Part shown: one piece after another, positions 345 to 6,887 of the stretch
Position numbering within the stretch: the first letter of the stretch is position 1
How the letters are laid out: the number at the start of each line of letters is the position of its first letter
Notes under the pieces: generated by a model
The model's input: the letters and a program-made list of their open reading frames with translations, nothing else
Told to the model about the DNA's origin: nothing
Databases searched by the model: none
Program-made: the position numbers and the translations under genes
From: a virus
Virus record (IMG/VR): IMGVR_UViG_3300046465_000159
Location: 1 to 20,224 of that record
Length of the DNA: 20,224 nucleotides
Direction: 5' to 3' (one strand)

Positions 345-1322
345 TTAACTATAATGATTTCGAACAGTTTCAATAAACAGTTTTACATTTTTAGGAGGAG
401 TAGTTTTTAGGATACCATGTCCTAGTCCACATACCCAACCTGTTGGATCTTCGATAGTGTCTAACCATTTTTTAATTTCATAGCGTAAAATTGTTTCACT
501 ATCTTGTAATAGTAATGTTTCATCAAAGTTACCTTGTACAAACCCGTGTTCTACTTTCTTAAGAGTTTTGTTTAGGTCAACTGTACTATCTACACCTATA
601 CCTGCAAAATTTAAATCAATTACTTTGTTTAAACTATTATAAGGAAGTGTTCTAGAATAATATGCTGTATTGCCGACATCTGCAAGTTGTTTCAAAAGAA
701 CACTATATTCTTTGTCAAAATAACTCTTATTGATATTTGAAAGACCGCTATCGAATATCATAACAGCATCAGCACCTGCGGCTAACTGTTCTCTAATGCT
801 AGATTGTAAAAGAGGTACCAGCACATCTTTTAAATACATGTGTTTAAATTCATTGCTTACTTCTTCATCACCTATCGCATAATTTAAAATAGTCCAAGGT
901 CCGCCTACAAATCCAACCAATCCCTTTTTGTATGATAACCTATCTCTAGTTTGTTCAAGTGCTTTTGTTTGAAAATTCAAAAAGTTTAATGCTTTTCCTA
1001 TGTCTTTATGATCTACCCAATTGTCTTCGTCTAGGTTCCATTCGAATTTTGGCCCTGGATTAAACTTCAAAGGTAACCCTAAGCCTTCTAAGTGAAATAA
1101 TATATCGCTAAAAAGTATTGCTACATCAAAGTCAAATTCATCTATAGGTAACATTGCAACATCGGTAGCCAATCGAGGAAGTTTGCACATCTGTTCGAAT
1201 GTCCAACTTTCTTTCATAGCCATATATGATGATTGGTATCTACCTGCTTGCCTCATCATCCATATTGGAGGACAAGGATTTTCTGCCCGCTCTAGGGCAT
1301 TTTTAAAAAGTTTATCGTTCAT
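345..1322 (-). CDS. hemE: Uroporphyrinogen decarboxylase
   Basis: Predicted to decarboxylate the four acetate side chains of uroporphyrinogen III to give coproporphyrinogen III, a cytoplasmic step of heme synthesis. At 325 residues it is slightly shorter than the usual 340-355. Family hallmarks are intact: PIWMMRQAGRY at 19-29 (substrate arginines), AILFSDILF with Asp73, GFVGGPWTILNYAIG including the conserved Tyr, FDSGLS near the middle, and GLGHGILKTTPPKNV near the C-terminus carrying the conserved His. All expected catalytic and binding residues are present, so it looks functional. It starts 15 bases after the ligase stop, has no clear Shine-Dalgarno site, and is probably co-transcribed with the ligase. 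A heme-pathway enzyme in a phage is unusual and may redirect the tetrapyrrole pool. Family assignment is very secure; the role in infection is inferred. Confidence 0.95.
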   Translation of the reverse strand: MNDKLFKNALERAENPCPPIWMMRQAGRYQSSYMAMKESWTFEQMCKLPRLATDVAMLPIDEFDFDVAILFSDILFHLEGLGLPLKFNPGPKFEWNLDEDNWVDHKDIGKALNFLNFQTKALEQTRDRLSYKKGLVGFVGGPWTILNYAIGDEEVSNEFKHMYLKDVLVPLLQSSIREQLAAGADAVMIFDSGLSNINKSYFDKEYSVLLKQLADVGNTAYYSRTLPYNSLNKVIDLNFAGIGVDSTVDLNKTLKKVEHGFVQGNFDETLLLQDSETILRYEIKKWLDTIEDPTGWVCGLGHGILKTTPPKNVKLFIETVRNHYS

Positions 1323-3996: not shown

Positions 3997-5049
3997 TTAA
4001 TAAGGATTAATATCTAAGTACTTCCCCCATTCACTATAGTAATGGCGCATACCTACTTCATCATGAATAGTTCCATTTTCATGTCTACCATGCAGTATGG
4101 TTCTTGCTTCAGTGCCTTCACGCATTGTTGTTCCTTGTCCTGCTACACCAATTAGGTCTTCGTGTAGGTTACGTCCGAACGGTCCCCATATGCTGTTGTG
4201 ATGATTGATGCGTGTGCGTCTTTCTTCTGGTGTGTCTTTGCGTAGTCCGTAACCTCTAAATTCTATAAGGACTTTGTTACAGCCTAAAGGAGTTACTGAG
4301 TCACTACGGTATGCGGAACCCCGTAAGTTGAAATTGAAGCCTGGGAATAAGTCGACCATGTACCACTGGTTGGGCGGCAGATTGGGAAAAGATAACTCCC
4401 CTCTATCCTCAAAGCCGTCATACTCAGTATAGTTAACAGTAAAGCTAGACACGTTAACATGACCATTATCAAAAGGAACATTTTTTCTAGCGAAATATTC
4501 ATCGTTAAATCCTGACACACGATTAAAGTAATGCATGAAGTCGTGATAGAATTCACTGTTGGTATCATGCCATAACTTATAGTTCGTATTTATAATTGCT
4601 TTGTGATAGTGGAACACTTCCATTTCTTCTGTGTCAATAGCATCAGCAATACAATCAAATGCACCTGCTGTCCATTCTTCAACACTTTGCGTTGGATTAG
4701 GATCAAGTGTTACCCATACCATACCTCCGTGCTTTACTTCACAATGCAACTGTGGTTCAACAGTTACAATAGGTGCTCCTAGAGTACCACTAGGTGCCCA
4801 ACTGCCATAGTTACGATATGCTCGAACACCATCGCCTGTGTTGTATGCAATAATATTAACACCTGCTATCTGTGTTGTTCGGTAGTCTAGTTTGTTATAC
4901 ATCTCTGAGATGTGACACATAGGAACCCATACTTTTTTAAATATAAGTTCTTGCTCTTGTTCAAATATTTCTGGGCTGTTGTAGGCTGTGCTACTAATTG
5001 ATTCTACGTTTGGTTGTGCTAACCAATTCTTATGATTACGTGGTGGCAT
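3997..5049 (-). CDS. Rieske-oxygenase alpha-subunit homologue lacking the Rieske cluster
   Basis: A 350-residue homologue of ring-hydroxylating oxygenase alpha subunits, which are usually above 400. The start fits the family (YNSPEIFEQEQELIFKKVWV at 23-42, then IAGVNIIAYNTGDGVRAYRN). The usual CxH and CxxH Rieske ligands are absent. After AYRN the sequence passes straight to YGSWAPSGTLGAPI and then VKHGGMVWVTLDPNP, as if the loops around NxCxHRG and CPYHGW were cleanly removed. The catalytic domain remains: NYKLWHDTNSEFYHDFMH carries two His, though spaced HxxxH rather than the usual HxxxxH, and a later FGRNLHEDLIGVAGQG supplies the acidic-ligand region. It may be a non-haem iron protein that receives electrons differently, or a non-catalytic derivative. 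It has a good AAGGAG site and its own extended -10 promoter downstream of the TonB receptor gene. Confidence 0.85.
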   Translation of the reverse strand: MPPRNHKNWLAQPNVESISSTAYNSPEIFEQEQELIFKKVWVPMCHISEMYNKLDYRTTQIAGVNIIAYNTGDGVRAYRNYGSWAPSGTLGAPIVTVEPQLHCEVKHGGMVWVTLDPNPTQSVEEWTAGAFDCIADAIDTEEMEVFHYHKAIINTNYKLWHDTNSEFYHDFMHYFNRVSGFNDEYFARKNVPFDNGHVNVSSFTVNYTEYDGFEDRGELSFPNLPPNQWYMVDLFPGFNFNLRGSAYRSDSVTPLGCNKVLIEFRGYGLRKDTPEERRTRINHHNSIWGPFGRNLHEDLIGVAGQGTTMREGTEARTILHGRHENGTIHDEVGMRHYYSEWGKYLDINPY

Positions 5050-5123: not shown

Positions 5124-6767
5124 TTAATAGTTAGTGCTTAATGATAAATTGAAAGTCCTGCCTTCTTGTGAAAAGCCATGTGGTGATTCGTAGTTATAAT
5201 CTAGTACGTTATTAAGCATTGCACTAAAGCCAATTCCGCCCCAATGTTTTGTTATTCCAATATCTAACAAATGTAGTTCTGGCATTGTAATAGTGCTCCA
5301 ATTACTGTTGTGTACATCGAGATGATTTCCTTTGTACTTATAGTTTGTATTTAGGCTTACATCATCTTCTAAATCTACACTGTGTAAAAATCCTAAACTT
5401 AGATTAGGACGTCTAAGTTGACGTGTGCTACCTACCTTACTGTCCAGATGACTAGCAAAGAATCTAAAATTATCTTTTGTGTATCCTAGTTCTAATCCTT
5501 GTGTATTAAGATCTCCTATATCACTTTGGAAAAATGTTGTTGTAAAATTGTTGTAATCTAAACTAACCTCTTGCGTGTTAGAATGTTCTACATCTGTGTA
5601 GCGTGTAGAGTTTTTATAGCCTGTTGAATGATTGCCCCTAAGTGTAAAGTTATCTGTAATAGGTTGTAAGAACCCTATTTTATAACTGTCATACTCTTCG
5701 TCTATTCTATAATGGTATGAAAATATATCATAACTATAGTTTGCAAAAAATCCTAAGTTATGGAAATTTGTATCGCTTGTGTCCCATAGGCTCTTAGCAT
5801 TTGAAATGTCGTGCTTGTAATCAAATCCAAATCCCCAATTATCTTTTTTGTGTTCTCCTTTGACTGTATAAGAATTACTACCATAGTCTGCATCATCATA
5901 CTGTCTATCATATTCATGAGTGTGCATGACTAACGAACTTGTACCTAATGTATTATACGAAGTAAGACTAGTTTGAAAAGCATAAAAACTGTTGTCACTC
6001 CATTTGTCTTCTTGTATACCAATGCTGTGTCCGTCTATTTCAGCCCATGTGTTCCTTGTAAACAAACTACTAGTAAAGTTTAGATTGTAATCTATCCACT
6101 TGCTTACGTTTATTCCTAGTGTCTTATTTTTGACTCCGTCGGTTTCGTTTGCTCCTGCTAGTGCTGATTGTGTTTCGCTTTCGTGTAAACCGCCTGACAC
6201 ACTTATATCCCAGTCGTTGAAAGTCTTCCAATAATAGTTACCATTTATAGTATCTTTATCAGCACTTATCTTTTTCTGATAGTCTACTGTGGTAACTAGA
6301 TTCACAGCACCTCCAATAGCATCAGCACCGTAGTGTGCGCCAGCACTTCCTTTGTATACTTCAATCTGATATACATTGAACATAAAGTCTTGTCCAAAGT
6401 CATGTGCGCCTGTAGGTGTACTAGCATCATTAATAGGTATACCGTTAAGTAAAACTAATGTATGATTTGAATTTGTTCCTCTTACAAATATACTTGCTTG
6501 TTGTCCTATAGGTCCTGACTGAGCAACATCCGTACCTTGCACAAAATTCATTACACTAGGTAAATCTATTAGATTATACTTTTGCATTTCAGTTTTGGAT
6601 ATTTTGTATGTTGGACTTATTTGATCGTTTAATTTATTTGAGTTACCAACAAGTATTGTTAAACAAGGGGGATCATCTTGCCAACTGCATTCTATTGGTT
6701 CAGCAGCTGAAATTTTGCCACAAAAAAACACAGCAAGAGCTGTGACTAACATTATTATTTTTATCAT
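5124..6767 (-). CDS. TonB-dependent outer-membrane receptor, BtuB-like
   Basis: A 547-residue receptor (E. coli BtuB is 614). A signal peptide (MIKIIMLVTALAVFFCGKIS, cleavage near AAE at 21-23) predicts export. A TonB-box-like LTILVGNSN lies at 36-44. The plug domain covers about 50-160, with RGTNSNHTLVLLNGIPIND at 96-114 and IEVYKGSAGAHYGADAIGGA at 135-154, the standard plug signatures. The rest (about 165-547) is alternating polar/aromatic beta-barrel sequence ending in NLSLSTNY with a C-terminal aromatic residue. In bacteria this family imports cobalamin, heme, siderophores or other scarce ligands using TonB energy; the ligand cannot be read here. The gene appears full-length. Its promoter predicts transcription from the ATG itself, giving a leaderless mRNA, and there is no ribosome site. 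Possible roles are nutrient uptake for the infected cell or blocking a receptor against other phages. Confidence 0.92.
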   Translation of the reverse strand: MIKIIMLVTALAVFFCGKISAAEPIECSWQDDPPCLTILVGNSNKLNDQISPTYKISKTEMQKYNLIDLPSVMNFVQGTDVAQSGPIGQQASIFVRGTNSNHTLVLLNGIPINDASTPTGAHDFGQDFMFNVYQIEVYKGSAGAHYGADAIGGAVNLVTTVDYQKKISADKDTINGNYYWKTFNDWDISVSGGLHESETQSALAGANETDGVKNKTLGINVSKWIDYNLNFTSSLFTRNTWAEIDGHSIGIQEDKWSDNSFYAFQTSLTSYNTLGTSSLVMHTHEYDRQYDDADYGSNSYTVKGEHKKDNWGFGFDYKHDISNAKSLWDTSDTNFHNLGFFANYSYDIFSYHYRIDEEYDSYKIGFLQPITDNFTLRGNHSTGYKNSTRYTDVEHSNTQEVSLDYNNFTTTFFQSDIGDLNTQGLELGYTKDNFRFFASHLDSKVGSTRQLRRPNLSLGFLHSVDLEDDVSLNTNYKYKGNHLDVHNSNWSTITMPELHLLDIGITKHWGGIGFSAMLNNVLDYNYESPHGFSQEGRTFNLSLSTNY

Positions 6768-6773
6768 ACAATT

Positions 6774-6802
6774 ATTATAACATTTTAAGCAAATAAAGTC
6801 AA
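6774..6802 (-). promoter_or_regulatory. Sigma-70 promoter of the TonB receptor, apparently leaderless
   Basis: Minus strand TTGACT (6802-6797), 17 bases, TATAAT (6779-6774). Only six bases (AATTGT) separate the -10 box from the ATG at 6767, which puts the expected +1 on the start codon. The -35 box begins nine bases after the CCA end of tRNA-Thr. Confidence 0.8.
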
Positions 6803-6811
6803 CCTTTATTT

Positions 6812-6887
6812 TGGTGCCGGCACACGGACTCGAACCGCGGACCTACTGATTACAAATCAGTTGCTCTACCAACTGAGCTATGCCGGC
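6812..6887 (-). tRNA. tRNA-Thr (TGT)
   Basis: A 76-base cloverleaf on the minus strand. The acceptor stem is GCCGGCA/TGCCGGC. The anticodon stem ACTGA/TCAGT encloses loop TTTGTAA, giving anticodon TGT for ACA. The D arm TAGCTCAGTTGGTAGAGCA is standard and the T loop is TTCGAGT. Discriminator A and an encoded CCA are present. It ends the long operon just before the TonB receptor promoter. Confidence 0.96.

Follow-up and report, generated by a model that had tools for sequence, protein, structure and literature searches.

Vitamin B12, which shapes plankton communities, is in short supply in surface seawater, and its receptor BtuB is also a classic receptor of phages and colicins. Genes for TonB-dependent receptors have been described in marine phages, e.g. 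the SusC-type receptor of the megaphage Mar_Mega_1, for which a role in sugar uptake was proposed (PMC9723777). The pelagiphage Polarivirus skadi carries an annotated TonB-dependent receptor among its tail and capsid genes, a position taken to indicate an adsorption receptor (PMC10504331). The taxa carrying the AdoCbl-variant riboswitch were given as 'Marine', not as phage, in a 2010 table (PMC2864571). In a literature search that covered few subscription journals, no paper was found that unites phage, B12 riboswitch and BtuB, nor any that places this RNA (RF01689) in a phage context, and no B12 receptor system was found in isolate phages.

The window considered here is an entire IMG/VR contig of 20,224 bp. 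It probably carries a phage auxiliary gene for a loop-pruned receptor of the BtuB family, which would give an infected Gram-negative marine host the means of taking up cobalamin. The features referred to below are as follows.

345 to 1322, minus strand: hemE, part of the phage backbone and common in marine phages without the receptor
3997 to 5049, minus strand: Rieske-type ring-hydroxylating oxygenase (Pfam Ring_hydroxyl_A, 2.9e-6), an adjacent, independently exchanged cassette
5124 to 6767, minus strand: BtuB-like TonB-dependent receptor of 547 aa with an ATG start (open reading frame, Plug domain, AlphaFold2 model, Foldseek, tree)
5127 to 6290, minus strand: beta-barrel, aa 160-547 (AlphaFold2 model; loop-length comparison, with the extracellular loops of strands 7-16 shortened relative to SAR11 and gammaproteobacterial BtuB)
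6306 to 6629, minus strand: plug domain, aa 47-154 (Pfam PF07715)
6645 to 6662, minus strand: TonB-box-like LTILVG, aa 36-41, a weak motif (inspection; position before the plug; low-confidence model region)
6705 to 6767, minus strand: signal peptide, aa 1-21, with a cleavage site between ISA and AE (inspection; N-terminal helix in the model)
6774 to 6802, minus strand: sigma70-type promoter TTGACT-17-TGTTATAAT, 7 nt before the ATG
6812 to 6887, minus strand: tRNA-Thr(TGT), with the upstream cassette boundary inside it at about 6856 (from the empty-site contig L014)

An earlier note on this DNA had claimed a full-length TonB-dependent receptor, and the open reading frame, Pfam, structure prediction, Foldseek and inspection bear this out, with signal peptide, plug, barrel and an aromatic C-terminus all present. 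The signal peptide (MIKIIMLVTALAVFFCGKISA followed by AE) was read by eye, and the last residue is a tyrosine. The Plug domain is the sole Pfam domain (5.6e-19; 69.1 bits, cut-off 23.9), the barrel model PF00593 staying below threshold on this protein. An AlphaFold2 model built from a 27-sequence homologue alignment (pLDDT 77, pTM 0.78) contains the plug followed by 21-22 barrel strands; the weak hydrophobic motif CLTILVG (aa 35-41) lies before the plug, in a region (residues 28-49) where model confidence is below 50. The top Foldseek matches of the model in the PDB are all E. coli BtuB (2gsk, E 1.2e-25, TM 0.81), which is also the top PDB sequence match, and the top NCBIfam match is TonB-B12 (2.5e-29). 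The BtuB equivalog cut-offs are failed by a wide margin (TIGR01779, 102.3 vs 599.7 bits; NF007926, 94.4 vs 836 bits).

The claim that promoter and codons look like those of the neighbours also held. The promoter matches the sigma70 consensus at 11 of 12 positions, the adjacent Rieske gene has one of the same type, and the GC content and codon use of the receptor gene fall inside the neighbour range (codon correlation 0.74, neighbours 0.62-0.87). With the end of the -10 element only 7 nt from the ATG, the receptor mRNA may be leaderless (6767-6802). The gene is under purifying selection, with a dN/dS of about 0.06 (dN 0.025 and dS 0.39 against L003; dN 0.078 and dS 1.33 against L004).

It could be argued that a bacterial receptor was misjoined to a phage contig, or was captured recently and is a functionless passenger, since the window itself has no recognisable capsid or terminase gene. 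We find this hardly credible. The receptor occurs with the same neighbours in four contigs of other metagenomes (L002, 100% protein identity; L003, 95%; L004, 86%; L010, partial), and the junction between tRNA-Thr and receptor recurs in the first three of these independent IMG/VR contigs; as the tRNA lies directly upstream of the receptor in both L003 and L004, the junction is no assembly accident. A 29 kb contig behind L004 with the same gene order (G003) extends into tail-fibre, virion-structural and tail-protein PHROGs. A terminase is present on 4 of 28 receptor contigs, none of them the window, and a tail sheath on another. (A search for the T4 Gp23 capsid protein over the receptor contigs gave no match, and the control likewise matched nowhere.) The low dN/dS, and the phylogeny described below, count further against a passenger. 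The possibilities named as refuting a phage receptor, a bacterial chromosome or a chimera at tRNA-Thr, thus fail: the receptor sits in a real phage lineage, and a chimera is ruled out by the recurrent junctions and the empty-site contig. Being host-type, intact and conserved, with synteny, purifying selection and virion genes on a syntenic contig, the receptor gene is an auxiliary metabolic gene.

It is also a swappable cassette. A sibling phage with the same flanks (L014) is 97% identical upstream and then jumps from window position 6856, within the tRNA-Thr, to 5132, with some 50 unmatched bases at the join; it lacks the receptor and has the Rieske gene. Conversely, L003, L004 and L010 jump from about 5129 to 3350; they have the receptor and, at that place, no Rieske gene. 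The Rieske-type protein itself has weak family matches, with relatives in the phage contigs L014, L016, L018 and L024.

Outer membrane transporters had been said to be seldom seen in phages. For isolates this stands: no record in the isolate-phage collection has a full-length receptor match, the matches there being partial, confined to the plug and located in apparent bacterial contaminant contigs. It does not stand for uncultured marine phages, as one alignment-based scan alone returned 70 viral receptor loci and another scan found further ones. With earlier loci included, the phage receptors form 28 clusters at 95% identity plus one fragment, and neighbours were tallied over 27 clusters, the truncated L137 being left out. 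In several of these lineages (L009, L126, L145, L147) thyX directly adjoins the receptor gene.

A single-sequence scan for bacterial relatives found none. When one genome per species was searched across 84,980 species, the matches listed contained a single close one over the full length, in the SAR11 single-cell genome L163 (E 8e-83; the next best of those listed, 2e-24). Such a receptor was then found at E <1e-100 in 19 of 297 Pelagibacteraceae genomes; at 1e-70, only two of 367 genomes from the class of L163 qualify, and these were part of the SAR11 set anyway. These SAR11 receptors are chromosomal and about 620 aa long; the copies L254 and L256 lie beside the 23S rRNA gene, and one copy does so within a 1.2-Mb contig. 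The earlier note had asked for a phylogeny against host receptors, and in the resulting tree (132 rows, quick search, midpoint root, Gammaproteobacteria not sampled systematically) 29 phage receptors group with 19 from SAR11 in a single clade (SH-aLRT 100), to the exclusion of 75 other bacterial receptors. The SAR11 receptors are sister to 22 phage sequences, the window among them, that make up a phage-only clade, and a second phage clade of 7 branches outside. The phage copies are therefore old, and the capture not recent.

The evidence for a B12 ligand comes from these relatives. In SAR11, an AdoCbl-II (B12) riboswitch, RF01689, immediately precedes 12 of the 19 receptor genes. With a covariance model built from 18 RNAs (12 SAR11, 6 phage), 30 of 72 phage loci were found to have a same-strand riboswitch upstream of the receptor; six of these loci are in the model, and 10 of 27 phage clusters are represented among the 30. 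The covariation is strong: 99.2% of cells are paired, 13 pairs show changes on both sides, and not one of 500 shuffles scores as high. The riboswitches of L145, L132, L120 and L102 have a diverged core (GATTACTTGATACGG vs CTGTTCCTGCAACGG in host copies), which perhaps reflects an altered ligand preference.

A second link is DUF6580 (PF20221), a small membrane protein whose gene comes after that of the receptor in 17 of 19 SAR11 loci; in all seven clade-I phage clusters it overlaps the receptor start. Conversely, the receptor stands beside DUF6580 in 52 of 80 viral DUF6580 loci, and a riboswitch was found in 17 of the 81 loci searched; individual sites include L153:5324-5833, L011:9535-10008, L244-L261 and L323:2697-3185. 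The closest folds to its model (pLDDT 82) are ECF vitamin S-components, a weak resemblance at E 0.19 and worse, and its sole PDB profile match is 6fnp_A (E 0.23), which we take to be the cobalamin S-component CbrT. DUF6580 is thus a candidate B12 permease, paired with B12 receptors in both phages and SAR11. In most clade II clusters, radical-SAM genes are next to the receptor or close by, and several of the receptor-adjacent proteins have a B12-binding domain, in some cases below the Pfam cut-off. No radical-SAM gene was found in the 69 hemE loci that lack the receptor. Overall, 23 of the 27 phage clusters show at least one of the three links (riboswitch, DUF6580 or radical-SAM), a pattern suggesting that certain phages drive B12 uptake in the cells they infect.

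The window subclade (the window, L003, L004 and L006) has neither riboswitch, DUF6580 nor a radical-SAM neighbour, and the cluster of the window is among the four of 27 that remain unlinked, so that cobalamin for the window copy is inferred from its kin. A riboswitch at the window receptor was sought and none found, the 44 nt from tRNA-Thr to the start codon being too short to hold one. In the window lineage a strong phage-type promoter stands where the riboswitch would be, which suggests expression whatever the B12 level. It is also conceivable that a receptor of BtuB architecture whose lineage has lost its B12 partners now imports another scarce ligand such as heme, a siderophore or some other compound, the more so as shortened loops could change the pocket and hemE lies on the same contig. 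We consider this unlikely. Sister branches at 54-59% identity have B12 riboswitches or else radical-SAM genes whose products contain B12-binding domains, and the sibling L014, of the same backbone, has a DUF6580 gene (overlapping locus L323, 2697-3185), the family that accompanies these receptors. The hemE gene mostly occurs without a receptor: one scan gave 71 viral hemE loci, 69 of them without a receptor in the stretch examined, so its proximity is probably incidental. The window hemE (345-1322) has no significant PHROG match, and its isolate-phage matches are solely apparent bacterial contaminant contigs. The tetrapyrrole theme that had been drawn from hemE finds no support here, and among the ligands once proposed (cobalamin, heme or a siderophore) it is cobalamin, with the support of relatives, that fits best.

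The barrel of most phage receptors is smaller, by about 70 residues, than that of their bacterial kin. It comprises 388 residues in the window and 378 in its phage clade, against a median of 457 in SAR11 and 466 in gammaproteobacterial BtuB. In clade II copies the barrel is some 70-80 residues shorter, chiefly through losses in the extracellular loops between strands 7 and 16 (e.g. 35 to 20 and 30 to 13 residues, mid-strand to mid-strand), and the loops between strands 3-6 and 17-22 keep the host length. Since the basal phage copy L145 (454 barrel residues) is unpruned, like the SAR11 copies, the shortening arose within phages. Economy is a possible cause, as is escape from rival phages and toxins. 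The latter leads to a further reading, a variant of the receptor masking suggested in the earlier note, in which the phage receptor displaces or stands in for the B12 receptor of the host and serves superinfection control, its pruned loops denying a docking site to rival phages or colicin-like toxins and still admitting the vitamin. The place of the lost residues speaks for such a role; however, nothing shows rival marine phages using a receptor of this kind, the loop topology was taken from a moderately confident model, and economy could account for the shortening, and so we hold this reading to be very unlikely.

The host is most likely a SAR11-like alphaproteobacterium, to judge from the phylogeny and from a permuted (two-piece) tmRNA of alphaproteobacterial type near the receptor in relatives (L007:9544-9895, L100:1975-2330). 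The GC content of the phage (37.5%) is higher than that of the SAR11 loci (25-32%). Several results on such hosts were counted against B12 uptake. TonB_C was detected in none of 44 SAR11 genomes, receptor carriers included, with a control positive in E. coli, Caulobacter and Bacteroides; TonB_2 was found in one of the 44. Most SAR11 genomes have one ExbD/TolR-type gene (PF02472), which is uninformative as a marker of a TonB system because this family probably also catches TolR. As consumers of B12 in SAR11, two candidates were rejected: the reactivation domain of MetH is found in none of 297 genomes, and TIGR02504 for the ribonucleotide reductase is below cut-off in all genomes but one, the protein examined being a class I NrdA. 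A minority of SAR11 has two kinds of TonB-dependent receptor (loci L243-L272), although no canonical TonB was detected there.

Under the preferred reading, cobalamin uptake, the phage would make its own outer membrane receptor while infecting a marine Gram-negative host, most likely a SAR11-like one. The receptor, presumably coupled to TonB, would carry cobalamin, or a cobamide related to it, through the outer membrane of the infected cell, as the kin of this receptor suggest, and the inner-membrane machinery of the host would complete the uptake. The benefit may lie in B12 for radical-SAM enzymes, which are neighbours in related phages, or for host metabolism. More tentatively, and with rather less than even confidence, marine phages, mainly those of SAR11-like hosts, may carry a B12 acquisition set of their own made up of an AdoCbl riboswitch, an S-component-like DUF6580 permease, a pruned BtuB receptor and B12-dependent radical-SAM enzymes, the parts of which are shuffled among cargo islands, with a pruned receptor that admits B12 and offers rivals no docking site.

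Widespread phage B12 receptors, some of them controlled by B12 riboswitches, would give viruses a direct part in B12 traffic, and they would offer a concrete handle on why phages encode outer membrane transporters. In SAR11 as well as in phages, DUF6580, a family of unknown function, would be tied to the uptake of B12. Some SAR11 genomes, moreover, encode a TonB-dependent receptor with no TonB detected.

Among known systems, E. coli BtuB (2gsk, 1nqh) shares with the window receptor the fold of plug and barrel, the top plug sequence match and the aromatic C-terminus. It differs in that the window receptor is phage-encoded, has 18% identity to it in the structural alignment, falls below the equivalog cut-offs and has shorter outward loops at strands 7-16. 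The BtuB-like receptors of SAR11 (Pelagibacteraceae) are the sister group, with full-length homology, and have the riboswitch and DUF6580 in common with the phage family, but they are longer, chromosomal and unpruned. The same RNA family, AdoCbl-variant or AdoCbl-II (RF01689), precedes many of the phage and SAR11 receptor genes. Mar_Mega_1 and UniProt A0A8D9FQQ5, the latter the only significant viral fold match of the window receptor (11% identity), are parallel cases of an annotated TonB-dependent receptor from an uncultured marine phage; they differ in that the annotation is SusC, with no B12 link reported. Polarivirus skadi is alike as a SAR11 phage with a gene of the same name, but the phage collection, from which the Skadi record is perhaps absent, gave no significant match to the window receptor.
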